Virus record (IMG/VR): IMGVR_UViG_3300028840_000625
Coordinates: 1 to 64,000 of that record
Strand: one strand, 5' to 3'
Length of the DNA: 64,000 nucleotides
DNA from: a virus
The position numbers were made by a program, and so were the translations under genes. Below the pieces are notes generated by a model that ran no database searches, was not told where the DNA came from, and saw nothing but the letters and a program-made list of their open reading frames with translations. Below, in pieces: positions 903 to 40,727 of the stretch; position 1 is the stretch's first letter; every line of letters begins with the position of its first letter.

Positions 903-935
903 TCATACGTCACCACAGAAGGCCCGGAGAGGAAA

Positions 936-1670
936 ATGATCATAGTAATTCCTGCAAGGGCGGCATCCTACCGCCTACCGAACAAACCGCTGCGGATTAT
1001 CGGCGGCAAGCCAATCATTCAACATACCTATGAGCGAGCCGCTCAAGCCGCTTCGGCTAACCGTATTGTGATTGCTACCGATGCCCCGGAGGTCGAGGAG
1101 GTCTGCCGGCAGTTCGGCGCAGAGACCGCTATGACATACGCGAACCTTGCTAACGGGACTGAGCGGGTTGCCGATCTTGTTAAGCGGTTAGACCTGCCGC
1201 TAAGCGAAGTCATCATCAATGTCCAAGGCGACAAGTTCGAGGTGGATCCGCTGGCGATAGATGAGATCTACCAGTATGCAAAAGAATGTCTAGTCCATAA
1301 CCGGCACCGAACATTGTTCTGCATGCACGAGGAATTTCAATCATCCTCGGAGATCGATGATCCCGGAATAGTCAAGGTAATAACCAGCAAGGATGACAGG
1401 GCGCTTTATTTTACCCGCGTTGGTTTACCAGCGGCCAAACGCCATTGCGGGATCTATGCCTACTATCCAACCTTCCTCGATGCTTACACCATGTTGACAA
1501 ACAGGGAGCTGGAGAAGCAAGAAGGCTTGGAGCAAATGCGAGTGCTTGAAAACGGGATGACCGCATATTGTCCGCGGCTGACATCTTGCAAAACGTCAGG
1601 AAGGGCAATAAACACGCCGCAGGATTTTGATAATGCGGTGACTCGCTACACCAAGGAGGAGGAAACATAA
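936..1670 (+). CDS. kdsB: KdsB-like CMP-Kdo synthetase (3-deoxy-manno-octulosonate cytidylyltransferase homologue)
   Basis: KdsB activates Kdo with CTP to give CMP-Kdo, the donor for LPS inner core and for Kdo-primed capsules. The 244-aa product has the family's usual length and motifs in order: IPARAASYRLPNKPL (res 5-19, nucleotide binding), NGTERVAD (about 68-75), NVQGD (about 95-99, Mg-binding Asp), ALYFTR, GIYAYYP and LEQMRVLENG. The segment that normally reads GVDTPEDL reads AINTPQDF here, so the second metal-binding Asp (D225 in E. coli, as I recall) is Asn. Catalysis could be altered, or the substrate could be a different sugar. RBS GGAGAGG lies upstream of the ATG. Start and length are secure; the exact substrate is not. 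Confidence 0.85.
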   Translation: MIIVIPARAASYRLPNKPLRIIGGKPIIQHTYERAAQAASANRIVIATDAPEVEEVCRQFGAETAMTYANLANGTERVADLVKRLDLPLSEVIINVQGDKFEVDPLAIDEIYQYAKECLVHNRHRTLFCMHEEFQSSSEIDDPGIVKVITSKDDRALYFTRVGLPAAKRHCGIYAYYPTFLDAYTMLTNRELEKQEGLEQMRVLENGMTAYCPRLTSCKTSGRAINTPQDFDNAVTRYTKEEET

Positions 1671-9853: not shown

Positions 9854-10024
9854 CTACTCAAGCATGTTGATGACCTTCTGCTTGAATGGGCAAGTGTCAT
9901 GGATCTTGTGCCATAAACATGATCCGCTAATCAACAAAATATAAATCAATAGCAATGCTACCAAGACCTCTAGCACCGCTTCAACAAATAATCTTGTGAC
10001 CCTGTTCTCTATATGAAATTTCAT
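9854..10024 (-). CDS. Small single-span membrane protein, 56 aa
   Basis: The frame encodes a 13-residue polar start, one long hydrophobic helix (about res 13-37, LEVLVALLLIYILLISGS) and a Cys/His-bearing tail (CLWHKIHDTCPFKQK). The start codon lies in a 16-bp palindrome. The RBS is weak. It follows another one-helix peptide and lies near the lysis genes, so a spanin or holin-related role is possible. The rest of the 9807-10129 gap is filled by this and the next peptide. Confidence 0.45.
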   Translation of the reverse strand: MKFHIENRVTRLFVEAVLEVLVALLLIYILLISGSCLWHKIHDTCPFKQKVINMLE

Positions 10025-10026
10025 AT
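10011..10026. repeat. Perfect 16-bp palindrome at a start codon
   Basis: ATATGAAATTTCATAT reads the same on both strands and includes the ATG of the leftward membrane peptide (10022-10024) and a mirrored ATG on the other strand. It could be an operator or chance in AT-rich DNA. Confidence 0.4.
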
Positions 10027-10041
10027 CCCATCTTCTTGCCG

Positions 10042-10149
10042 CTAACCGAGTCTAGACAGCTTGGCTATGGCAACGAAAATCAAAAGAATGAGAAGGGCGA
10101 TTTTAACGCCCAACTCATACCACCAATGCTTATTCAACCGGCCACGCAT
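10042..10149 (-). CDS. Tiny single-span membrane peptide, 35 aa
   Basis: The ATG lies 20 nt inside the end of the DUF1353 gene. The peptide begins MRGRLNKHWWYEL, then has one hydrophobic helix (GVKIALLILLIFVAIA) and ends KLSRLG. Basic residues on both sides of a single helix are typical of phage membrane peptides. It overlaps its neighbour in the manner of a coupled gene. Function is unknown. Confidence 0.45.
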   Translation of the reverse strand: MRGRLNKHWWYELGVKIALLILLIFVAIAKLSRLG

Positions 10150-10573
10150 AAGGATCCGCTTTTGGCTTGTCGTGAGACCGGCTTCCCCAGCCTCCCCAAC
10201 CGCCTATGCGGACTGCATGATACATCGCATCAGCTACACTAAACTCCACGCCTGCCTCGGCTTCCTTTGCCAGTATTCCTTCCCGGAAGATTTCATCAGC
10301 CCGCTTGCGCGTGCAAATCTCACCCCCTTCGCGGCTTAGATAGTAGAGGTAATCATGGACGACTGCCGGTTGGTTATAACTAAAATGCACCTTGCTCAGT
10401 AACCCCTGAAAGAATCGGGGGATACTGGCAAGATCACATTCAAAGCCTTCCGGTATGGTAACGACAAAACCATCAGCGCATGTGTAATCAAAACCCTTGT
10501 GCACACGCCACAAGATCTTGTCTATATCCTCGAGGATTAACGGCCCGGAAAAGAGCCCGTATTCTTCGGACAT
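10130..10573 (-). CDS. DUF1353 family protein, 147 aa
   Basis: The family signature is clear: IPEGFECDLASIPR (about res 40-53), then AVVHDYLYYL with conserved His-Asp, then RADEIFREG. DUF1353 proteins are common near phage lysis and tail genes; their biochemical role is unknown. Full length for the family. It starts one base within the holin-like gene's stop region. The C-terminus has a Gly-Trp repeat (GGWGGWGSR). Confidence 0.8.
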   Translation of the reverse strand: MSEEYGLFSGPLILEDIDKILWRVHKGFDYTCADGFVVTIPEGFECDLASIPRFFQGLLSKVHFSYNQPAVVHDYLYYLSREGGEICTRKRADEIFREGILAKEAEAGVEFSVADAMYHAVRIGGWGGWGSRSHDKPKADPYAWPVE

Positions 10574-10764
10574 TATTTCTTGCCGATTGGTGAAGTGGTA
10601 ATTGCGCGCAGGAAAATGTTGATAAGACCGACCACGGCAACCGTCGCACCAGTAACATCATCAGCGAAGGTTTCCGGGAGGACAACACCAAACTGCGCCA
10701 GCGTACCGGCAACAACCAGCAAGCCATTAGTCACAACTGTTTTCCAGCCTTTCAGGGTTTCCAT
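10573..10764 (-). CDS. Putative holin, 63 aa
   Basis: Two hydrophobic segments (about res 9-27: VVTNGLLVVAGTLAQFGVV; about res 34-55: DVTGATVAVVGLINIFL), a short acidic turn between them and a basic end (PIGKK) fit a small class II holin or holin-like protein. The METLKGWKT opening and the TTSPIGKK-type end are frequent in phage proteins of this kind. The start at 10764 has AGGAG at good spacing; an ATG at 10770 is too close to it. It lies in a lysis region with an endolysin 1 kb upstream. Confidence 0.55.
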   Translation of the reverse strand: METLKGWKTVVTNGLLVVAGTLAQFGVVLPETFADDVTGATVAVVGLINIFLRAITTSPIGKK

Positions 10765-10766
10765 TA

Positions 10767-10856
10767 TCATTGCTCCTGTTTAAGTGAAGAAACAGTCTTG
10801 CATAACAGACACAAGACCCACAACAACAACCCCGCTGCAACCATGAAATAGAACAT
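10767..10856 (-). CDS. 29-aa hydrophobic peptide
   Basis: The frame starts 4 nt after the sigma-factor stop and ends overlapping the next start region. It encodes MFYFMVAAGLLLWVLCLLC followed by KTVSSLKQEQ, a single membrane helix with a polar tail. Position between the sigma-factor and holin-like genes suggests a lysis accessory peptide, but the RBS is weak and the length short. Confidence 0.35.
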   Translation of the reverse strand: MFYFMVAAGLLLWVLCLLCKTVSSLKQEQ

Positions 10857-28647: not shown

Positions 28648-29163
28648 TTAAGTCCTCACCAGCTTGACGCTAGCATCGCCGCCGCGGGACTTTACCGCCC
28701 CGAGGTGATCTAGCATCTTCATAACTGAATCCGGGATTGCGGTCGTGCTGTCGCGGTCTGCTTTGTCGATCTCCAGCTCAAGCACATCAACCTTGATCCG
28801 TCTGAATCCCTTTGTGTCAGGTTCAGCGCTTGGATTTACATTGGCAAGGTATCCAGCAAGCTCAACCGTGGCATCCTTGAGGTTTACCGGAAGCGCATCG
28901 CTGTCAATCCAGTAGCCATCTTGATCATCGACTCCGTAACGCGGCCAGCGTAGCGCCTGCGTGTCGGTTGCCTTCGAGCCTTTCCAGTCATACCAGTCAT
29001 CCAGCGTGCGCGTCGCCATGATGAGCAGCTTGTTCTGATCGTCTGCCGTGTATCCATCCCAATTGGCTGAATAAATCGAATCAGCCCAGAAGGAAGAAGC
29101 ATAAGCATGCGTGACATAACTATTGCTATTTGCCCCGCCTATCGTCGCATCAATCGTCGCCAT
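28648..29163 (-). CDS. Head-tail adaptor (often labelled DnaT-like), 171 aa
   Basis: Contains NSYVTHAYASSFWAD, KLLIMATRTLDDWYDWKG and ALRWPRYGV, which match the phage family commonly named putative DnaT-like ssDNA-binding protein. By position and helical content it is the head-tail connector (gp15/gp6-like). The first 14 nt overlap the end of the glycosyltransferase gene. Confidence 0.75.
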   Translation of the reverse strand: MATIDATIGGANSNSYVTHAYASSFWADSIYSANWDGYTADDQNKLLIMATRTLDDWYDWKGSKATDTQALRWPRYGVDDQDGYWIDSDALPVNLKDATVELAGYLANVNPSAEPDTKGFRRIKVDVLELEIDKADRDSTTAIPDSVMKMLDHLGAVKSRGGDASVKLVRT

Positions 29164-29884
29164 CTCTATCGCTCCTGATCCTTATGTCCCGGTGCGTGTC
29201 GAAGCTGGCATTATTGCAATGGTTCATCGCATGCCACTCGCGCCACCAGAGGTCTGCAAAATCGCAGTCAGTATAATCCCGGAAATACGGGCCTCCCTCT
29301 GTGTAGTGCAGTAAGCTCAGGGTGTCTGCGCTCCTGTTGTGATAATAATCCACAAGGTAATTCCATTCTAGTGGCAAGTCACCGATTTGGTGTAGGCCGT
29401 CCAGCCACTTGAACTGGTGGAGATCCAGCCCGTGCATCTCATTTATCACTTCCGGGGTTAGCTGCTTGCATTTTGCGGTATTCATCAGCATGACCGATGA
29501 CCAGTTCTTGTAACGGTAGAGCGTTTGCTTGGTGCCAAGGTATTTGATCTTGTTCTTCGGCTGATGGTCGTGCTTGACAACCTGCACCGCGTAGTTCTCG
29601 TCCCTGATTTTCCAGAGGTTATTGATGTCATCGAGCACGAGCATGTCGCAGTCCATGAAGATGGCCCAACCCTTGTACCCGCAAAGGTACGGCACTAGCC
29701 AGCGCGTGAAGGCAAACTCGTTTGACTGGTTTGGGTCTGTCGGCCTGTCGTGGATATGCTTAAAGTGTCGCTTGGCGATCGGCGTGATTGATACCGGCAC
29801 CGATGACCTCTCAATGATGCTATGGCATAGCGTATGGTATGCGGCGGCTTCCGCATAGTCATAGCCGATGAAGATTCTGATCAT
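29150..29884 (-). CDS. GT8-like glycosyltransferase, 244 aa
   Basis: Starts with IRIFIGYDYAEAAAYHTLCH, the typical N-terminus of GT8-like nucleotide-sugar transferases, and carries the metal-binding DxD as FMDCDMLVL (about res 82-90). Further on LEWNYLVDYY and LLHYTEGGPYF are family-type acceptor-side segments. A GT-A fold enzyme is expected. It may add a hexose to a glycan made by the neighbouring enzymes. The ATG at 29884 has GGGGAAAG upstream. Last gene of the sugar island, overlapping the adaptor gene. Confidence 0.75.
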   Translation of the reverse strand: MIRIFIGYDYAEAAAYHTLCHSIIERSSVPVSITPIAKRHFKHIHDRPTDPNQSNEFAFTRWLVPYLCGYKGWAIFMDCDMLVLDDINNLWKIRDENYAVQVVKHDHQPKNKIKYLGTKQTLYRYKNWSSVMLMNTAKCKQLTPEVINEMHGLDLHQFKWLDGLHQIGDLPLEWNYLVDYYHNRSADTLSLLHYTEGGPYFRDYTDCDFADLWWREWHAMNHCNNASFDTHRDIRIRSDRDGDD

Positions 29885-30255
29885 GCTACTTTCCCCTTTA
29901 CGCGGCAAACAATCGGGCCGTCATAGCCCGTCCATCCGGCCTCGTATTCGATTTCGTGAATTCTCACGTTGATGAGTTGCTGCTTTGGTTTAATCATGCA
30001 CTCGGTCACGCGGCCGTCATCGTCCATCCCGATAATTAGGCCCCGAGACACCTGCACCACATCTCCCGGCTCTAATCCCATCTCGATGCTTTGCGGATAA
30101 AACGAAAAACACACCCACTCCCCTTCACTGCTTACTGCCTTCGGTGCTGGTTCCATGACAGCAGGAGTAGCTGCCGGTATTTTGTTTGCTATAGCACCGA
30201 GTCCTACGGCACCTGCGGCCTTGCCGAACAGCTTGAAGAACTCTCTACGTTTCAT
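29881..30255 (-). CDS. Tat-signal exported protein, 124 aa
   Basis: The N-terminus MKRREFFKLFGKAAG contains RREFFK, close to the twin-arginine consensus (S/T)RRxFLK, then a weakly hydrophobic stretch (AVGLGAIA) and an Ala/Pro-rich cleavage region. The mature part (about 85 aa) is a small beta domain (GLEPGDVVQVSRGLIIGM). Twin-arginine signals are rare in phage genes; the role is unknown. The ATG at 30255 overlaps the sulfotransferase end by 11 nt. Confidence 0.6.
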   Translation of the reverse strand: MKRREFFKLFGKAAGAVGLGAIANKIPAATPAVMEPAPKAVSSEGEWVCFSFYPQSIEMGLEPGDVVQVSRGLIIGMDDDGRVTECMIKPKQQLINVRIHEIEYEAGWTGYDGPIVCRVKGKVA

Positions 30256-30871
30256 TTTCCAAGATCCTCTTGAGCATAAAATCGTCATAGCCAAATCGCC
30301 GGTATAGCTGCGATTCATTAGCAATAATCCGGTAAGCATAATAAGGCGCTTCCTGCATTATCCGTAGCGGGTTCTTTGTGCCACCGATAACCTGCTTTGC
30401 GCTGGCCCTGATAAAGTCTGCGTCAAAGCGCTCCTCGTAATACTGCAAGGCGCGGATCAACTCGTTTGCAAGATCCTCGTATTTCCATAGGGAAAAGGAA
30501 TCATAGTAATGCATCCACTCCATGTAATATTCCCAAACAATCCCCGGACGTTCTGCGACGCGGCCATAGAATTCCCGGAGATCGGGACACCCGCACTCCT
30601 TCTCCAGCCGATGATCCTGCTGCCAGTTCCAATCCTTGTGTCTGGTGTTGGTGTGCTTACGCGCGCGGTGGTGCCAAAGACTATTCAGCATCGTTACAGG
30701 ATGCCGGACAAAAGCAAAGGCCGGCTTGCCATCCACCTGCGGACATTCATGCGCCTGATAGATAGGATCACCGATGTCCTTGTATCCCATTTTCCTCAAG
30801 ACATTGGCAACCCAACGGCCTCCCGTTTTGGGAATATGAATGAAGATCGAGTTCTCTAGTTCAATCGCCAT
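30245..30871 (-). CDS. Sulfotransferase family protein, 208 aa
   Basis: Transfers sulfate from PAPS to a hydroxyl group, here possibly on a sugar. The 5'-phosphosulfate loop is FIHIPKTGGRW (about res 9-19) and the 3'-phosphate motif is FAFVRHPVTMLNS (about res 52-64); both are intact. The remainder is helical with WKYEDLANE. Shorter than eukaryotic enzymes but usual for bacterial and phage forms. No PAPS-synthesis gene is in the window, so host PAPS is needed. Confidence 0.8.
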   Translation of the reverse strand: MAIELENSIFIHIPKTGGRWVANVLRKMGYKDIGDPIYQAHECPQVDGKPAFAFVRHPVTMLNSLWHHRARKHTNTRHKDWNWQQDHRLEKECGCPDLREFYGRVAERPGIVWEYYMEWMHYYDSFSLWKYEDLANELIRALQYYEERFDADFIRASAKQVIGGTKNPLRIMQEAPYYAYRIIANESQLYRRFGYDDFMLKRILENET

Positions 30872-30979: not shown

Positions 30980-31717
30980 TCAGTCCTTGTAGACAAACAG
31001 GAAGTCGCCGTCATGCAGCGGAATAAGCTGCTCGTTGCTGGCGACATCGACGCCTTCTGCGACCGAGGTGATTTCCTTTAAGCCTTGTCCCCGGATGTTA
31101 TAAAAGCACCGGTATCCAATATCCATCAGGAAGTGGAAGGTATCAGCAACAGGGCCGTCATTGAATTTCGGATAAACCTCGCACATAACCGCTGGCCGCT
31201 CGTTTGATATGGTCAACGTAGCGCCGCGCAAGACATCCAGTTCATTGCCTTCGACATCGATCTTGATGAGACCAATTCCCATGTTATCCGGTGAGCTATC
31301 AATCCATGACTGCGCCCATGAGTCAATAGACACCATCTCAACGGTTATCGGCTGACCGCCGACAAGATCCCGGAGACCGCTATTGGATAGCCGCTTGTCA
31401 TCAACGTAGAAAGTAACTTCATCCTTGTCCTCTCTACCAACGGCGTAGTTGATCGCGGTCACATTGTCATTCCTGTCGGCAACCAGCTTGAGCTGCTCAT
31501 AAACTGGCGGCACAGCCTCGAAGGAATATACATGCTTGGCAAGACCGGCCCAGAAGTGCGTATACATACCAACCGCCGCGCCGATATCGAGAACAATGGA
31601 ATTCTTGTCAATGAACTTCGCGGTTTGCCCGAGCATATAGTGCTGCCGGTGAAGGTTGTAGATATTTTGATTGAATACCCGTCGCTGCAATACGGAGTCA
31701 GATAGATTCAAGGTCAC
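30980..31717 (-). CDS. FkbM-family SAM-dependent methyltransferase, 245 aa
   Basis: SAM motif I is VLDIGAAVGMYTHF (about res 42-55) and the FkbM signature is LIKIDVEGNELDVLRGA (about res 150-166). These enzymes O-methylate sugars and natural products. Full length for the family. It belongs to the sugar island and may methylate a deoxyhexose. RBS GAGGAG lies 5-8 nt before the ATG. Confidence 0.85.
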   Translation of the reverse strand: MTLNLSDSVLQRRVFNQNIYNLHRQHYMLGQTAKFIDKNSIVLDIGAAVGMYTHFWAGLAKHVYSFEAVPPVYEQLKLVADRNDNVTAINYAVGREDKDEVTFYVDDKRLSNSGLRDLVGGQPITVEMVSIDSWAQSWIDSSPDNMGIGLIKIDVEGNELDVLRGATLTISNERPAVMCEVYPKFNDGPVADTFHFLMDIGYRCFYNIRGQGLKEITSVAEGVDVASNEQLIPLHDGDFLFVYKD

Positions 31718-31754: not shown

Positions 31755-32783
31755 TTATTTCATTAGCACTTGCAGGTTGACGCGGCGCCCTTTCTCGACA
31801 ACCCCGCCTTGATGGATGCCTGCGCCTGCATCGAACACTGCGATGTTTGTCTCTGCTGCGGACAAAAGTGTCCGTCTGAATAAAAGCATCTCTTGGCTCA
31901 AGACTGAGTTCTCTTCGACAAAGCGGCCAAAGTTATACGAGACCCGCAACGGTTTCGGCATGGCAAGAATCGGCGCGCGTTCTTCCGGGGTCTGCATGTA
32001 GTTGCCGGTGCATAACGCCCTGCCAAGTATTTCCTTGTGCGCTGGTATAACAAAGCGATGGCTTCCTTCGATGAAGTGAAAAGGGCCGTTGTTAATTTCG
32101 ATGCCCTCAAGGTAGATGATCGCCTTCATGCAATCCTCCTTGGGGTCGATGTGTGTATTGATCCACGGATTGACTGGTGCGTCATAGCCGCCGAATTGCC
32201 GGTAGTGCTGATCGGTCGGCGTGCTGATATGCAGATAAGCTCCTGCGACTTTTAGCGGCTTCCCCTTATAGGCGCTTGCCGCTTCCAGTATTCCGCGCTT
32301 GGTGAGTTCGGCTTGTAGCGTCTTGATGTATTCAGCTCCAAGCATCTCGCCGCGGTCATAGGTTCCCGGAGGCGGTTGCCAATCAGGCTTTGCCAGCCAC
32401 TTGTCTACCAGCTTGCCGACATTGATCTTGCTTGTGTCAACCTGCCCCATCCAGATCCCATTGTTATAGATCGACTGGAAAACCGAGTTGGCCGGCTCCC
32501 GTGTCAAGATCATCTCATGGTTGCTGTGCGGCGGTCTGACCATGTTGTTGCGATATACCCGGAACTGCTTTCGGATCCTGTCGAACAAAGCCGGATCATC
32601 GAGGCCGTGCATAGCAAACCGGATCTCCTCCATGAAGGAGTGCTCATCGCCGCGCGTAACCGCGACATCGAGGATCCAAGGGTCATAGTCATCATCAAGT
32701 CGGTTTTGCTTTTCCTCTGGATAGAGCGATGCCACATCGGGCAACTCAAGCCACTTGCAATAGATCGGATTATCCCACCGCAT
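31755..32783 (-). CDS. PhyH-like 2-oxoglutarate/Fe(II) dioxygenase, 342 aa
   Basis: Facial triad: HID in WINTHIDPKEDCMKA (about res 213-215) and the distal His in GAGIHQGGVVEKGRRVN, whose Arg can hold 2-oxoglutarate; GPFHFIEGSHR is the PhyH/phytanoyl-CoA core strand. Such proteins hydroxylate small molecules, lipids or sugars in biosynthetic clusters. The start at 32783 lies after GAGGAGTCCTCCG, inside the end of the preceding gene. The substrate is unknown. Confidence 0.75.
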   Translation of the reverse strand: MRWDNPIYCKWLELPDVASLYPEEKQNRLDDDYDPWILDVAVTRGDEHSFMEEIRFAMHGLDDPALFDRIRKQFRVYRNNMVRPPHSNHEMILTREPANSVFQSIYNNGIWMGQVDTSKINVGKLVDKWLAKPDWQPPPGTYDRGEMLGAEYIKTLQAELTKRGILEAASAYKGKPLKVAGAYLHISTPTDQHYRQFGGYDAPVNPWINTHIDPKEDCMKAIIYLEGIEINNGPFHFIEGSHRFVIPAHKEILGRALCTGNYMQTPEERAPILAMPKPLRVSYNFGRFVEENSVLSQEMLLFRRTLLSAAETNIAVFDAGAGIHQGGVVEKGRRVNLQVLMK

Positions 32784-33081
32784 CGGAGGACTCCTCAGCT
32801 TGTGGATTATCGTCAACATACTTGTCCAGATTGTCGGCGTAATTACGCAAGGCGGTTGCCAGTTCACGCGGATCCATCTCTGTCGGAAGCGTCAGGTTAA
32901 AAAGCTGCTGCTTTATAAAGCGCGGCTTGGGCGCGTCTTTCGATGCCGCATTGAAATCAGGCGGCACAGCCACATGGCTGATGATGGTATTCATGGCAAG
33001 CACGTGCATACCCGTGTCAATCTGGAATTTCGGGGCAATCGTCATATCATGCGCCATAATCATTTGCTGCTCTTCGCTCAT
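32770..33081 (-). CDS. Hypothetical protein, 103 aa
   Basis: Soluble protein with beta-rich N-terminal half (FQIDTGMHVLAMNTIISHV) and helical C-terminal half (DPRELATALRNYADNLDKYV). No recognised domain. It lies between a TM/coiled-coil gene and the oxygenase with 4-14 nt overlaps on both sides. It may be an accessory of either. Confidence 0.55.
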   Translation of the reverse strand: MSEEQQMIMAHDMTIAPKFQIDTGMHVLAMNTIISHVAVPPDFNAASKDAPKPRFIKQQLFNLTLPTEMDPRELATALRNYADNLDKYVDDNPQAEESSDAVG

Positions 33082-33360: not shown

Positions 33361-34236
33361 TTAATCTCCATTCTGAACCTCGCTGAAAGAGAAGCCGCTA
33401 GACATCAGCCGCAGGTAAGGTCTACCGGTACGCATCTCATCAAGAGTCCATTGCGTATAAGCAAGATCGCAAGCCCATTGCTTACGGGCCGACTCTGACG
33501 GGAAGAAGGGGTTGTTGATCATTCGCAGATCGTGGCTTGTAACGTTGTGCGCCATACTCCCCGCGTTAAAAGAAAAGGCCGGCACTCCTGCGATGACCGC
33601 CTCAACAGCCGCGTTGGAATTATATGTAATACAGGCATAAGCTCCGTATAAATCATCCATCAGCGTGTCATTGCGGGAGTTGATTACCCCTAGCATGTCA
33701 GGTGTCCTGCTGCGGGCAAGCGGATGTGCACGGAATACAACCGGCTTGTCAGTCATGGATCTCAGGTCAGTGCAGGTCTTTTGGCACCACTGGATAATGT
33801 CAATGTCTTGCACGCTGGCGTCTGACGGGACCTGTCCGCAAACAATAATGTGCTGACCTTCGGTTCTCCGGGGATGCAGGTTCACATCGAGGAGTTCCCA
33901 CCGATCGGCCGGACACGCAAGGTTATGGAATTCAGCATGGTTGTTCAGTCCGTTCAGACCGACCATGTAATACTCATCGCGCTTGACAAAGCCCTTCTCG
34001 ATGACAATGACATCTTTCCCTGCAAGGCGCTGTTGGCGTATAACGTTGCCGCGAGCATAGGAACACGGGACTCCCTGCTTGCCGATACCGAAAACAATGG
34101 CGACATCGACCGGCGTGTAGTTATCAACCGAGTAGATGGTGACATCTTCGTTGACCTTTGCCACGCCTTCCGCAAAAGCCTTGAGCGCCTTTTGGTGAAC
34201 CTTGTTATCCCCCGGAGTAAATATTCCTACCTTCAT
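33361..34236 (-). CDS. KpsS/capsule-biosynthesis-like GT-B protein, 291 aa
   Basis: The C-terminal half shows VVFRAHPLAR (about res 166-175) and ACITYNSNAAVEAVIAGVPA (about res 203-222), a layout shared by the GT-B polysaccharide-biosynthesis family that includes KpsS/KpsC-type Kdo transferases. Next comes HNVTSHDL, INNPFFP and a Trp-rich end. N-terminal MKVGIFTPGDNK is a Rossmann start. If it uses CMP-Kdo, the KdsB-like early gene would supply it; this link is inference. RBS AGGAGGAAG upstream. Confidence 0.6.
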   Translation of the reverse strand: MKVGIFTPGDNKVHQKALKAFAEGVAKVNEDVTIYSVDNYTPVDVAIVFGIGKQGVPCSYARGNVIRQQRLAGKDVIVIEKGFVKRDEYYMVGLNGLNNHAEFHNLACPADRWELLDVNLHPRRTEGQHIIVCGQVPSDASVQDIDIIQWCQKTCTDLRSMTDKPVVFRAHPLARSRTPDMLGVINSRNDTLMDDLYGAYACITYNSNAAVEAVIAGVPAFSFNAGSMAHNVTSHDLRMINNPFFPSESARKQWACDLAYTQWTLDEMRTGRPYLRLMSSGFSFSEVQNGD

Positions 34237-34272: not shown

Positions 34273-34938
34273 CTATGCGTTGACAGCTTCGCCTTGAATG
34301 GCTGTTACCACAAAACCCATGCCGTCATCAGCATCATAGACATGGCCCGGGATCTTCTCGTACTGAGTAGCCCATTGCTTGACCGTGTATTCAGACTTTG
34401 ACAAGAGTTCAGTGAACTCGTCTTTTGTGTAATGGCGAAAGTGGAAGGGATGCGTGTCACGGTTGAACGGTACCACTTCCTCGTTAGGCACCGAACCAAC
34501 CAGCACAGAAGCATGTTCGCCGTACATTTGGATTAATGCCTCATCATCCTTGACATGCTCGATGGTTTCTATGCTGACGATTACATCAACCTTCTGCTTT
34601 TCCCCGTCAAAGCCATCCACCAACGCAGCCTCAAACTCTTCGCGCTTGCTGAGGTCTGCTTGCTGGAATCTATTATTGCCTTCCCCATAAGCACGGGTAG
34701 CAGCATCTACAGCAGGCTGATGGATATCGATGCCGATTACACGCGCTTCCGGGAAAGCGGTGGCGAGCATATAGGTGCCGTATCCAATACCGCAGGCGCA
34801 GTCAACAATGTTGATGCTGGGGTTGTCACCGAACAATGCCTTGATCTGGTTTATAGCGAAGTTATATCTATGCTTGTGGTTCGGCTTGATACCGTCCAGC
34901 GTTTCAGCTACTTGTCTTTCTCCGGTCTGGGGCAACAT
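34273..34938 (-). CDS. SAM-dependent methyltransferase (class I, UbiG/type 11), 221 aa
   Basis: Motif I is NIVDCACGIGYGTYML (about res 42-57), motif II has VIGIDIHQPAVDAA, and motif IV is VIVSIETIEHV. ATG 34938 has AAGGAG with good spacing. The upstream extension to 35025 lies inside the preceding gene. Probably methylates a sugar or small molecule of the island. Substrate unknown. Confidence 0.8.
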   Translation of the reverse strand: MLPQTGERQVAETLDGIKPNHKHRYNFAINQIKALFGDNPSINIVDCACGIGYGTYMLATAFPEARVIGIDIHQPAVDAATRAYGEGNNRFQQADLSKREEFEAALVDGFDGEKQKVDVIVSIETIEHVKDDEALIQMYGEHASVLVGSVPNEEVVPFNRDTHPFHFRHYTKDEFTELLSKSEYTVKQWATQYEKIPGHVYDADDGMGFVVTAIQGEAVNA

Positions 34939-35155
34939 ATAGCGGATCTCCTTTCTTGGTGAATGGTAAACACTTCCAGTCGGGGTGAAGATAAAAGACT
35001 TCGGTCCCGTCCTCAAGTTGCTCAAGGGTCTTGAACGGGAACTCTACATCCGGGTCATCGGCATAAAGGTCTTTAACCTCCAAAAAGATTTCAGCAAGCC
35101 GCATACCTTCCTTGATGTAGAGGATCTTGTTTATAAAATCGAGTTCTATATTCAT
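34904..35155 (-). CDS. Hypothetical protein, 83 aa
   Basis: Starts 4 nt inside the end of the GDP-mannose dehydratase gene and overlaps the methyltransferase start by 35 nt. Mixed alpha/beta (MNIELDFINKILYIKEGMRL, VFYLHPDWKCLPF). No known domain. Found between sugar enzymes, but nothing in the sequence shows a related function. Confidence 0.5.
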   Translation of the reverse strand: MNIELDFINKILYIKEGMRLAEIFLEVKDLYADDPDVEFPFKTLEQLEDGTEVFYLHPDWKCLPFTKKGDPLYVAPDRRKTSS

Positions 35156-36186
35156 GCGAGTTGCGCGTGGTATATGATCGGATCCACGCCCTCTCTCGAT
35201 AAGTCGTAGTCAACCATCTCACGAATCATGGTCTCGAAATCATAAGCTCGCTTCCAACCAAGTTTGTCCTGCGCCTTTGCTGGATTACCGAGTAACAGCG
35301 GAACTTCTGACGGCCGCATCAGATCCGGGTTTTTCATCAGGTGTTCGGCCCAGACATCGATGCCGACATAGGTGAAGGCCGTGTGGACGACATCCCAAAC
35401 CCTATGCTTTTCGCCCGTGGCAATCACAAAGTCCTCCGGCTCGTCCTGTTGCAGCATGAGGTACATGGCATAAACATAATCACGAGCATGGCCCCAATCG
35501 CGGTAGGCATCGAGGTTCCCGAGTTCAAGGAACTGCTGCTTGCCGGCAACGATACGCGCAACAGCCTTGGTGATTTTCCGCGTTACAAACTCTTCACCCC
35601 GGAGCGGTGATTCATGGTTAAACAGAATCCCGGAGCAAAAGAAATTCTCGTATGCTTCGCGGTAATTCTGCACGGCATAGTGCGCGGCTACCTTCGCAAC
35701 CGCATAGGGGCTGCGCGGGTGGAATGGCGTATCCTCTCCCTGTGACTCGACATTGACAAGGCCGAACATCTCCGAGGTGCTAGCTTGGTAGAGTCTCGTG
35801 GATGGCGAGAACTGGTTGATCGCGGCCATGATGTTCAGCGCGCCAACGGCGTTTATTTGAAACGTGGCAACCGGCGAAGCGAATGACTCCGGGACAAAGG
35901 ACATGGCTGCAAGGTTATATACCTCGTCGAATTGTCCCTCATCAATCACATTGTTGACCTGCGCGGAGCATGTCACATCGAAATTAAGGAAGGTCAGGCC
36001 TTGTGCTGGATTGTGTTCCTCATACTCTGACTCCGTGACAAGACTAAGCTCCTTGAGCCGCCAGAGGTTCATGCTGGCCGTCCTGCGCATGCCTGCATAG
36101 ACCTCGTAACCCTTTTGCAGTAATAGCTCGATTAGGTAAGCGGCATCCTGCCCCGAGGCGCCGGTGACAAGCGCGGTCTTTTTCAT
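35152..36186 (-). CDS. gmd: GDP-mannose 4,6-dehydratase, 344 aa
   Basis: Converts GDP-mannose to GDP-4-keto-6-deoxymannose, the branch point to fucose, rhamnose, perosamine and colitose donors. Extended SDR features: GASGQDAAYL (about res 9-18, NADP site), YNLAAMSFV, catalytic STSEMFG and SPYAVAK (Tyr-x3-Lys), then LFNHESPLRG and RDWGHARDYV. Full length. Canonical GQDGAYL is GQDAAYL here, a mild change. No follow-on reductase or epimerase is in the window. ATGA overlap with both neighbours shows a coupled operon. Confidence 0.95.
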   Translation of the reverse strand: MKKTALVTGASGQDAAYLIELLLQKGYEVYAGMRRTASMNLWRLKELSLVTESEYEEHNPAQGLTFLNFDVTCSAQVNNVIDEGQFDEVYNLAAMSFVPESFASPVATFQINAVGALNIMAAINQFSPSTRLYQASTSEMFGLVNVESQGEDTPFHPRSPYAVAKVAAHYAVQNYREAYENFFCSGILFNHESPLRGEEFVTRKITKAVARIVAGKQQFLELGNLDAYRDWGHARDYVYAMYLMLQQDEPEDFVIATGEKHRVWDVVHTAFTYVGIDVWAEHLMKNPDLMRPSEVPLLLGNPAKAQDKLGWKRAYDFETMIREMVDYDLSREGVDPIIYHAQLA

Positions 36187-36986
36187 GACAACACCTTCGG
36201 CCTTTGTGTTTCCGGTTTTTCTACTCCCGGATCCTTGTCTAGCAGACCGCCTTGCGCTTTCCGCTCCGGGCCTTTGAGGTGCTCCATGTATTCCCCGAGT
36301 ATTGACTCCTGAAAGGGATGGTTGCTTTGCTCATTCGGATTCAGGTTCTTGTACGGGATAGCCATCGCCGTGCGGATAAAGTCCATTGAGTAACAATCAT
36401 GGAATTCTCCGAGGTATTTGAACGCGCCTTCCGCATAGGTGTTATACCAAAGCGGCATAAAGAAATTGTTTGCGGGATGGTTGGTATTGAAGCCGACAAA
36501 ACCGTTTTCGCTGTAGAGCCACTTGCGCTCAAGCACGGCCATATAGAATTCTGGCTCACCTTCCTTTACGGCAAATATGCCTTGCAGGAAGTTCGGCGGG
36601 ATATCGGCCTTGAATACTACGTCCGCATCAACCCACGCAACGATTCCGTTTTGCGAGTGGCATGCGTCGCAGATAGCGAACACTTTTCGGTAGAACCGAT
36701 TAGCGTCATATCGGAAGTTGTAGACCTGCTGCTGCGGATTCTGCGGGTTGATATGTTTCCCGGAGTAAATCGGATCACTGTTATTCAGCACAGCCTCGAT
36801 CTGCTTGAAATCATCGAATGAGTAAAGGTCTTTGTAGATAATGCGGTCATCCTTCGGCGCGGCTGACGGGATGCCATGCTCATAGTAGACCGTGAGTGTT
36901 TGATCCTTCCAGTGCTTTAGGAAGCCTTCTATAAACCGCTTCCCGTATTCATGATAGCCCTTCTGCGAGAAGGAAGTAATAATCAT
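36183..36986 (-). CDS. Glycosyltransferase-like protein with DxD, 267 aa
   Basis: First gene of the sugar island after the capsid block. Opens MIITSFSQKGYHEYGKRF; a DxD (GIVAWVDADVVFKA, about res 114-127) precedes ENGFVGFNTNHP, as in small GT-A enzymes of polysaccharide clusters. C-terminal segment EQSNHPFQESILGEYMEH is likely the acceptor-binding helix. Donor and acceptor are unknown. Confidence 0.65.
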   Translation of the reverse strand: MIITSFSQKGYHEYGKRFIEGFLKHWKDQTLTVYYEHGIPSAAPKDDRIIYKDLYSFDDFKQIEAVLNNSDPIYSGKHINPQNPQQQVYNFRYDANRFYRKVFAICDACHSQNGIVAWVDADVVFKADIPPNFLQGIFAVKEGEPEFYMAVLERKWLYSENGFVGFNTNHPANNFFMPLWYNTYAEGAFKYLGEFHDCYSMDFIRTAMAIPYKNLNPNEQSNHPFQESILGEYMEHLKGPERKAQGGLLDKDPGVEKPETQRPKVLS

Positions 36987-37552: not shown

Positions 37553-38695
37553 TTAACCTGCAATACGGGTTGCCAGTTCCGGACGGACCAGCTTGGCACC
37601 CCACAGGATATCCAGTTCCCAAGTGACCTGCTTGTACTGGCGGGACACCTCAAGGCGCAGGCTGATACCGGTCTGCGGATCAGTCATTGCCATGATGCGG
37701 CTACCGAGCTGCATGTCGGCAGTGCTCTGCATCAGCGGACGGTTTGCAAAAGCAAAGGCGTCACGGTGGAAAGCCAGATTGACCGTATGATCACCCACAA
37801 CCGTTACGGCTTCACTGGAAGCATCAGCCTTGAGGTTAGGCGTAATGCTGACAGCGACATTGCCGGTGGAAACGATGACGGCAGTGGCATTGACCACGTA
37901 AGTCTGCGTATCACCTGCAATGGTGAAGATGTCACCCGGAAGCAAAGTTGTGTTGTTGCCACCAGTCATATCGATCGAGGAGGTACCAGCGGCAACCGCG
38001 CTACCGACCACAATAGCAGAAGCAGTCGCGCCACCAGCGGTATGAACCGGCACGGCATCATCCGCATACCAGTCAATGCCGTACTTGCGGCCGATCTCAC
38101 CTTCGATCTTGACGCCGGTGCTGCCGGTCTTTTCCGCATCAGCGAACGGTGCCAGCGCGAGTGCGTTGGCTTCCGCATCGTAGCTCAGCACACCGCGGCG
38201 ATTGTCGCGCGGGGCAAGCTGCTGGTGCAGGACCTTGCGAGCGTTTGTAGCTGCCACAACGGTAGAGGCGAAAGGCGTAGTACCAGCGGTGCCGGTATAG
38301 CCGTAGACGCCCTTATACTCCGCAAAGATGTCCTCATTCACGGCATTGGCAAGAGCACGAATGGCCTCGCTCATTTGCATGGGAATGAAGTGCTCGTTGC
38401 GGTCGATTTCTACCATGTCCTTGTCGGTCAGATAGAAGTTGGTCTTTTTCCAGTTGTCCAGAGGAATCTGAACCTTGCCCGGAGTGGAGTTAGAAGCGCT
38501 GGAATAAACAGGCGCAGGAGTAACATCCGAGGCGGTAATACCGGAAGGAATCGGCACATCAATCGTGTCACCCTTTTCGGCAGCTTCGCGTGAGTAGTCA
38601 CCATTCACCAGTCGCGGCATGGAAGCCTGCTCACGAAGGGCAAGCAGACCACGCGCGAGGATTTTGGCCATAATGTTGTCAAGAGTATTCGACAT
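37553..38695 (-). CDS. Major capsid protein, P22 coat-like, 380 aa
   Basis: N-terminal MSNTLDNIMAKILARGLLAL, RLVNGDYSREAAEKGDTIDV and LDNWKKTNFYLTDKDM are typical of P22 gene-5-like coats with the HK97 fold. An Ig-like insertion (about res 220-300, Thr/Val/Gly-rich) is present, as in P22. C-terminal VSRQYKQVTWELDILWGAKLV is the usual end. Between the scaffold and a terminator, as expected for a highly expressed gene. Confidence 0.9.
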   Translation of the reverse strand: MSNTLDNIMAKILARGLLALREQASMPRLVNGDYSREAAEKGDTIDVPIPSGITASDVTPAPVYSSASNSTPGKVQIPLDNWKKTNFYLTDKDMVEIDRNEHFIPMQMSEAIRALANAVNEDIFAEYKGVYGYTGTAGTTPFASTVVAATNARKVLHQQLAPRDNRRGVLSYDAEANALALAPFADAEKTGSTGVKIEGEIGRKYGIDWYADDAVPVHTAGGATASAIVVGSAVAAGTSSIDMTGGNNTTLLPGDIFTIAGDTQTYVVNATAVIVSTGNVAVSITPNLKADASSEAVTVVGDHTVNLAFHRDAFAFANRPLMQSTADMQLGSRIMAMTDPQTGISLRLEVSRQYKQVTWELDILWGAKLVRPELATRIAG

Positions 38696-39638: not shown

Positions 39639-40727
39639 CTAACCAAATTCAGCGCACTTGTCTAGAAATTCCATTGATTTCTTTTCCAGTAACGCGGGAA
39701 GCGTGTGGCCGTAGAAGTGGATCTTCCCCGGATTCCTTTTTGCCAGCTTTGCAAGCGCAACTCCGCTCGCCAGCATGTCGGGGCGGGTATTCCATACGCC
39801 TGCGCCTTCGGTGTTTTCCAGTGGATTGCCATTCTCGTCAGTTCCCTCGACAAGCCCTTTGTCGGTCATGTCAACGCCTTTGCGCTGCGCAACCCCGTCA
39901 ACATAGAAGCTGGAATCCTCTCGCCATCCGCAGTCTGTCCCTACCAGCACGGCATCAGCAGCCCCCATGAAGATCGCCGCTGACAGGGCACGGTTGACTA
40001 CGTTATACCCGCCGCCCATGCAGTCATGAGTCGGGAATCTGGTGTTATACATCTCGACTTCGTTTTTATAACCGGTCGCTGAGTGGAATATCATGACTTC
40101 CGCGGCATCCTCCCCAGCGTCCGGGGGTTCGTACTCACCAGCTTTCCAAGAGTCATAGTCATCCTCAAGGACTCGCTGCGCCTCTTGGTCGGTCAGTGTA
40201 CCTAACCAATCGGCGAAAGGCATCCCGGCCTTTAGGTATTTGTATAGCAGAGGATCACTTGAGCTTGCAATGATGTGCGTCATGCCGGGAGCTTTATAGA
40301 TCTTTTCCGGTCTTGCAATATGTGCCCCGGGATCCATGCTGACGCCATACTCCATCTTGATCCCTTGGTCATGCAGGAATTTGATGGCTTGCTTGCACGC
40401 AAACAGCACCTTGTTGCCAGCCTTGGAAGCCTTGCGGATTTCCTTGACCGAATCCTCTTCCTTTAGCGACGGCCCGGATCCAATGACATAAGCGGTTGTG
40501 TTCGGCTGCAACATCCCGGCTTTGTAGATCGGAGTGCCTTCTTCCACGCGCTTGGCATAGAAATCCAGATTGTCGGGGTAGTTGTCGATGTTCGGATTGA
40601 CAAACTTAATCTTTTGCCCGCCCGTTTGCATGGTCGTCTGATTGGTGTGGCCGCGTTCATATTGCTGCGCGTGGATCAGCGACATATGGCGCACATGGAT
40701 TGGCGCCATCATTGGCTCTGTCATCAT
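39639..40727 (-). CDS. Maf/DUF115-like protein (MptE-like fold), 362 aa
   Basis: The core has YVIGSGPSLKEEDSVKEI (about res 80-97), FACKQAIKFL and YGVSMDP, typical of DUF115 (6-hydroxymethylpterin pyrophosphokinase MptE-like and flagellin glycosyltransferase Maf). The later segment CMGGGYNVVNRALSAAIFMG with VLVGTDCGW also fits. Maf proteins place nonulosonic acids on flagellin. Placed directly before scaffold and coat, a role in glycan transfer to a virion protein is attractive but unproven. Confidence 0.65.
   Translation of the reverse strand: MMTEPMMAPIHVRHMSLIHAQQYERGHTNQTTMQTGGQKIKFVNPNIDNYPDNLDFYAKRVEEGTPIYKAGMLQPNTTAYVIGSGPSLKEEDSVKEIRKASKAGNKVLFACKQAIKFLHDQGIKMEYGVSMDPGAHIARPEKIYKAPGMTHIIASSSDPLLYKYLKAGMPFADWLGTLTDQEAQRVLEDDYDSWKAGEYEPPDAGEDAAEVMIFHSATGYKNEVEMYNTRFPTHDCMGGGYNVVNRALSAAIFMGAADAVLVGTDCGWREDSSFYVDGVAQRKGVDMTDKGLVEGTDENGNPLENTEGAGVWNTRPDMLASGVALAKLAKRNPGKIHFYGHTLPALLEKKSMEFLDKCAEFG

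Follow-up and report, generated by a model that had tools for sequence, protein, structure and literature searches.

KdsB, the CMP-Kdo synthetase, is a long-studied antibacterial target, and its two-Asp Mg-A site has, to our knowledge, been described as strictly conserved. GlmU, a related uridylyltransferase of the same superfamily, uses an asparagine as a Mg ligand, its metal site comprising Asp105 and Asn227. In the A. aeolicus KdsB, Mg-A is coordinated by residues D95 and D219 (PMC3149649). Retaining β-Kdo transferases are marked by two motifs, QXXXD, which contains the nucleophile (PMC10148158, PMC12887879), and (K/R)XHP, which binds CMP (PMC12887879). Genes for parts of this chemistry have been seen in viruses before: both kdsB and kdsA are among the auxiliary genes reported from viruses (PMC10653327), and kdsA has been reported together with gmd in phage (PMC5332604). 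Here we describe a phage record that carries both a KdsB-like gene and a gene for a QXXXD transferase, a pairing in one phage record for which we found no earlier description in the literature. The KdsB-like protein belongs to a state of the family that we call N-type: Asn replaces Asp as the second Mg-A ligand, usually together with loss of the Glu of the QGDE motif. This state recurs in the KdsB family; we likewise found no earlier description in the literature of such a coupled variant across the family.

A KdsB-like gene in a tailed-phage record

The window, that is, the whole stretch of DNA analysed, is the first 64 kb of an IMG/VR virus record of 74,595 bases in total, and contains tailed-phage late genes for terminase, portal, head morphogenesis, capsid and tail. 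Near its start, an ORF at 936–1670 (+) encodes a KdsB/CMP-Kdo synthetase-like protein of 244 aa, as judged by profile and fold matches, with a Shine-Dalgarno-like GGAGAGG at 926–932 (+) upstream of the ATG. The protein matches Pfam family PF02348 (CTP_transf_3) with an E-value of 1.1e-38 and scores 201.9 bits against the NCBIfam KdsB subfamily NF003952, above the cut-off of 193. Against the NCBIfam equivalog TIGR00466 it scores 147.5 bits, below the cut-off of 155.2, and we therefore place it in the NF003952 subfamily only and do not claim equivalog status for it. Sixteen PDB sequences were matched, with KdsBs at the top. An AF2 model, for which 33 window and locus sequences were used, had a mean pLDDT of 95.1, and the first 32 PDB matches in a fold search with this model were all KdsB or KpsU, with a best E-value of ~1e-28.

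The window protein is thus KdsB-like in both sequence and fold. It shares with KdsB (A. aeolicus 2y6p, E. coli 3k8d) and KpsU (1gqc/1h7e) the overall fold, the CTP_transf_3 domain, equivalents of K19 and D95, the GTER and LEQxR motifs and the overall length. Unlike these proteins, it has Asn in place of D219/D235, Lys in place of the QGDE Glu and a shorter loop before H170, and its gene is phage-borne and unaccompanied by kdsA. An identity as a CMP-nonulosonate synthetase of the NeuA or PseF type was considered and rejected, as PseF scored 44.7 bits against a cut-off of 205.7 and NeuA (sialic-acid synthetase) folds ranked well below all KdsBs in the model search.

The protein is divergent, with a best identity of ~41%; no close relative emerged when viral contigs were searched with this protein alone, and no PHROGs family matched it. 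Neither kdsA nor kdsD was found in a search across the 74.6-kb record, which may be incomplete. Since neither is in the record, the Kdo would have to come from the host. The kdsB-like gene lies in a block of small genes, 32 kb from the late sugar cassette described below and on the opposite strand. Just upstream of it, at 841–903, is a strong hairpin with a 14-pair outer stem and an inner 7-pair stem (z-score −4.3 against shuffles), which has neither a T-run nor an Rfam match.

Substitutions at the metal site

Residues were mapped onto the A. aeolicus KdsB, which is identical to PDB 2y6p. In the alignment, K19, D95 and D219 of that enzyme correspond to K17, D99 and N226 of the window protein, and to K19, D100 and D235 of the E. 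coli KdsB. The first Mg-A ligand, D99, is kept, and is followed by K100, a position occupied by Glu in most KdsBs (1230–1235 (+)), so that the QGDEP of KdsB reads QGDKF. The second Mg-A Asp is absent; in its place is N226, with the codon AAC at 1611–1613 (+). In addition, the loop from P165 to H170 (1428–1445 (+)) is shortened, with 6 residues against 14–21 in most relatives. The first-pass annotation of this DNA had called the ORF a KdsB-like enzyme with Asn for a metal-binding Asp, which the alignment of N226 with D219/D235 bears out. It had named the correct residue but put it at 1612–1620, and its description of all KdsB motifs as intact except AINTPQDF overlooked both the QGDKF sequence and the shortened loop.

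Outside these positions the protein looks like a typical member of its family. Of 125 KdsBs dereplicated at 60% identity, all have the equivalent of K17 and 124 that of D99, both of which the window protein retains. It also keeps the invariant and near-invariant residues of the KdsB alignment, including those of the C-terminal domain. Given how divergent the enzyme is, its two altered active-site residues and its shorter loop could nevertheless mean that it is a CMP-sugar synthetase acting on a different 2-keto-3-deoxy sugar acid; E100K and D226N would then reflect that substrate, which might be 8-amino-Kdo or an octulosonate specific to the phage or the host. We consider this unlikely: the near-invariant C-terminal-domain residues are retained, the nonulosonic-acid families score far lower, and the same Asn is found in bacterial and viral Kdo loci (see below).

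Asn recurs at the Mg-A site across the KdsB family

Asn at the Mg-A site is uncommon overall, yet is a widely recurring natural variant. It occupies the N226 position in 47 of 306 collected KdsB sequences, and in 21 of the 125 dereplicated representatives. By origin, it occurs in 30 of 95 viral or phage homologues, in 4 of the 80 best bacterial matches and in 3 of 90 Pseudomonadota loci, these three being in genomes that carry another kdsB match too. Second kdsB-like copies in the Pseudomonadota loci L258, L260 and L266 retain QGDEP but read HG(V/I)NTP at the metal site. In a sample of the cyanobacterial phylum, all five large-genome members have Asn, and none of the 25 small-genome members examined does, these having Asp; the split probably follows that between photosynthetic and non-photosynthetic members.

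The two positions usually change together. The Glu after QGD is missing in 41 of 47 Asn sequences and present in 220 of 256 Asp sequences. Among the 125 representatives, the states of residues 100 and 226 are Glu/Asp in 86, other/Asn in 17, other/Asp in 17 and Glu/Asn in 4, a coupling with a Fisher p of 2e-8 that is uncorrected for shared ancestry. K100 of the window protein differs from the Q, L, M, I or V of most N-type enzymes. A single A-to-G change at 1611 would restore Asp, and an error in sequencing or assembly could in principle have produced the Asn. Against this stand the coupled change at K100 and the finding of Asn in other sequences, where it is a common natural state that co-occurs with a non-Glu residue 100, and we regard such an error as highly improbable. 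A tree of 77 sequences required five Asn/Asp label changes, and its supported branches make at least three of these unavoidable; the window protein has a long branch and an uncertain place in it.

Other departures from the canonical site were seen among viral relatives. One KdsB relative (L179, 807–1547) has Asn at both Mg-A positions, with PVN for QGD and VNTPDD at the second. KdsB-like proteins of L177 and L178 (~9986–10774) have LPCDMP for QGDEP and carry Gly where the window protein has N226; their nucleotidyltransferase activity is possibly a different one. Eleven viral loci (L029, L032, L034, L035, L041, L042, L047, L049, L050, L057 and L058) contain ORFs of ~550–576 aa, in which a KdsB-like domain at the C-terminus follows ~320 residues of another domain.

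N-type KdsBs reside in Kdo pathway loci

The N-type KdsBs of Calothrix parasitica (L145), Iningainema tapete (L144) and a Binatia MAG (L108) share with the window protein both the Asn and the loss of the QGDE Glu. They differ from it in being chromosomal, in having Q or L rather than K after QGD, and in exceeding the TIGR00466 cut-off. Unlike the window gene, two of them are operonic: the C. parasitica gene lies in the order kdsD-kdsB-kdsA-kdsC, and in the Binatia genome the N-type kdsB is followed by pyrG, kdsA, kdsD and kdsC, and then by lptA, lptB and rpoN. A second kdsB was looked for in the Binatia, L144 and L145 genomes and none was found. Viral kdsB-kdsA genes, as in Synechococcus phage S-SCSM2R and the IMG/VR loci L052–L074, L388 and L389, are virus-borne like the window gene, often N-type and often near a GT8 gene; these loci have kdsA, unlike the window record. 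In 12 viral N-type loci (L052–L055, L061, L062, L065, L066, L068, L071, L073 and L074) kdsA is found beside or near kdsB, and all but L061 of these also carry a GT8 gene homologous to that at 29150–29908 of the window.

From the operon context, we infer that the N-type enzymes are functional. Since Asn is found in operons with kdsA, kdsD and kdsC, and next to kdsA in viruses, the N state accompanies Kdo-8-P synthase. Likewise, because Asn occurs in single-copy KdsBs of Kdo operons and in viral KdsBs encoded near kdsA, it implies by itself neither a new substrate nor a dead enzyme. The second Mg-A Asp is therefore not family-defining, as the dereplicated relatives with Asn include TIGR00466 equivalogs in Kdo operons. 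These observations do not bear out the first-pass annotation, which had taken the Asn to mean either a changed activity or another sugar acid. It had also suggested aligning relatives to see whether the Asn is shared, as it proved to be, and had named its occurrence as a common state of active KdsBs as evidence against its own view; this is in essence what we observed, with the activity of those enzymes read from operon context.

A catalytically weak or dead relative of KdsB, either a pseudoenzyme or a decaying acquired gene, would account for the lost metal-ligand Asp, the rare K100 and the missed TIGR00466 cut-off. We think this quite improbable, as the ORF is intact and has a ribosome-binding site, the invariant residues are retained, and the same Asn is present in the sole detected KdsB of several bacteria as well as in several viral lineages, with the supported branches of the tree forcing repeated changes.

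A sugar cassette in the head gene block

With the major capsid protein gene (37553–38695 (−); phrog_283, 5.9e-77) as a landmark, a sugar cassette is located within the head gene block, between the capsid and connector genes. Reading away from the capsid gene, it encodes a protein of no Pfam family that is a putative glycosyltransferase by context (36183–36986 (−)) and that, in 76 of 80 viral loci, is encoded beside the KpsS-like gene; a GDP-mannose 4,6-dehydratase-like protein (35152–36186 (−); PF16363, 1.8e-113); a SAM-dependent methyltransferase (34273–35025 (−)); the KpsS/KpsC-like protein discussed below; an FkbM-type methyltransferase (30980–31717 (−); PF05050, 1.5e-16); and a GT8-like glycosyltransferase (29150–29908 (−); PF01501, 1.3e-05), relatives of which are encoded close to kdsB at many viral loci. 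A close relative, L391, has the window's order of GT, GMD, methyltransferase, KpsS-like and GT8.

Three further ORFs in this region resisted assignment. A 370-aa cassette protein (31755–32867 (−)) without a Pfam or PHROG family resembles iron/2-oxoglutarate dioxygenases by eye, a reading that its lack of a Pfam family leaves unconfirmed. A sulfotransferase-like reading of 30245–30871 is similarly unconfirmed, with Sulfotransfer_1 at an E-value of 0.021 only. Between the head morphogenesis and scaffold/capsid genes, an ORF at 39639–40727 (−) encodes an MptE-like (PF01973) protein that matched nothing in the phage collection. Maf flagellin glycosyltransferases also contain PF01973, and a role as a Maf-like CMP-sugar transferase was considered; the ORF gave just a marginal match (E 0.055) to a single solved structure, 5mu5, and we therefore claim no role for it.

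A β-Kdo-transferase-like protein in the late block

The ORF at 33361–34236 (−) encodes a 291-aa protein that has the signature motifs of retaining β-Kdo transferases, with tentative profile and fold matches to these enzymes, and is the likely user of CMP-Kdo. Residues 135–139 form a QXXXD motif, QVPSD (33820–33834 (−)), which aligns with QVESD of KpsC 6mgd, and residues 169–172 form a (K/R)XHP motif, RAHP (33721–33732 (−)). D139 and H171 are 32 residues apart, compared with an expected distance of ~32–34 after the nucleophile, and the spacing is similar to that in KpsC (GT107), WbbB (GT99) and KrkA (GT140), which have both motifs. Q135, D139 and H171 are invariant in 18 aligned viral members of the family. 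Run against all PDB sequences, a profile of these 18 sequences matched KpsC and WbbB chains only, although weakly (best E 0.0046). Foldseek placed WbbB and KpsC first (E 1.9e-05, TM ~0.39) for a low-confidence model with a pLDDT of 58, and the retaining β-Kdo transferases KpsC, WbbB and KrkA are its best fold matches. The window protein differs from these three in being phage-borne, single-module and very divergent. The suggestion in the first-pass annotation that the KdsB-like enzyme may supply a KpsS/KpsC-like transferase in the late block gains support from both signature motifs, and profile and fold point to KpsC and WbbB as well.

The wider KpsS-like family spans more than 500 viral loci. 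The cassette is common to the 80 loci that we examined, nearly all of which have Ser at the nucleophile position; Ser was counted at this site in 79 more distant relatives. Unlike the window transferase, which retains the Asp of QXXXD, the KpsS-like proteins encoded at L348, L388 and L389 have Ser in that place. Only 3 of the 80 loci have kdsB within 10 kb; all three of these kdsB genes are N-type, and two are accompanied by kdsA. An unannotated ORF in a Manatee Spring podovirus (L390, 4792–5613; MW202713.1) is 45% identical to the window transferase, has QVPQD and RPHP motifs, and adjoins terminase and sugar genes.

The rarity of kdsB near relatives of the transferase bears on where the sugar goes. 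An active enzyme might instead supply host LPS or capsule, for example to exclude other phages, with the late transferase using another donor. It has been proposed that LPS genes of phages change the surface of the host (PMC5332604), the kdsB gene is grouped with small genes on the other strand, at a distance from the late cassette, and many transferase relatives have no kdsB nearby. Set against this are the two motifs found in the late transferase, QXXXD and (K/R)XHP, and the position of the cassette between capsid and connector genes; a product destined for the host surface is possible, but we consider it the less likely outcome.

A proposed route for phage use of Kdo

We propose that ORF 936–1670 probably encodes an active phage CMP-Kdo synthetase of the N type, whose product likely feeds the late phage glycan cassette. 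We infer catalytic activity, with Kdo as the substrate. Mg-A would be held by D99, the amide oxygen of N226, a water molecule and the CTP α-phosphate, and Mg-B would travel with the triphosphate, as in the A. aeolicus KdsB, with K17 stabilising the leaving pyrophosphate. The product would be CMP-Kdo, made from the Kdo of a Gram-negative host, and its likely consumer the phage's own β-Kdo-transferase-like protein (33361–34236 (−)). In this presumed partnership, the transferase would add one Kdo residue to a glycan of a virion protein; the host surface is a less likely destination. More tentatively still, we speculate that an N-type synthetase and a retaining β-Kdo transferase could constitute a two-gene route for Kdo decoration of a virion glycan, and that Glu loss with Asn gain could mark a second metal-site architecture that is functional and that recurs in viruses, cyanobacteria and Binatia.

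In many KdsBs, apparent housekeeping enzymes among them, Asn naturally replaces one of the two Mg-A Asps, and a second, coupled change usually accompanies it. Studies of mechanism and inhibition made on the two-Asp form may therefore not cover the whole family. For phage biology, the pairing of a CMP-Kdo synthetase gene with a β-Kdo-transferase-like gene that lies among the virion genes offers a concrete case, open to testing, in which a phage would use an acidic sugar of the bacterial surface.
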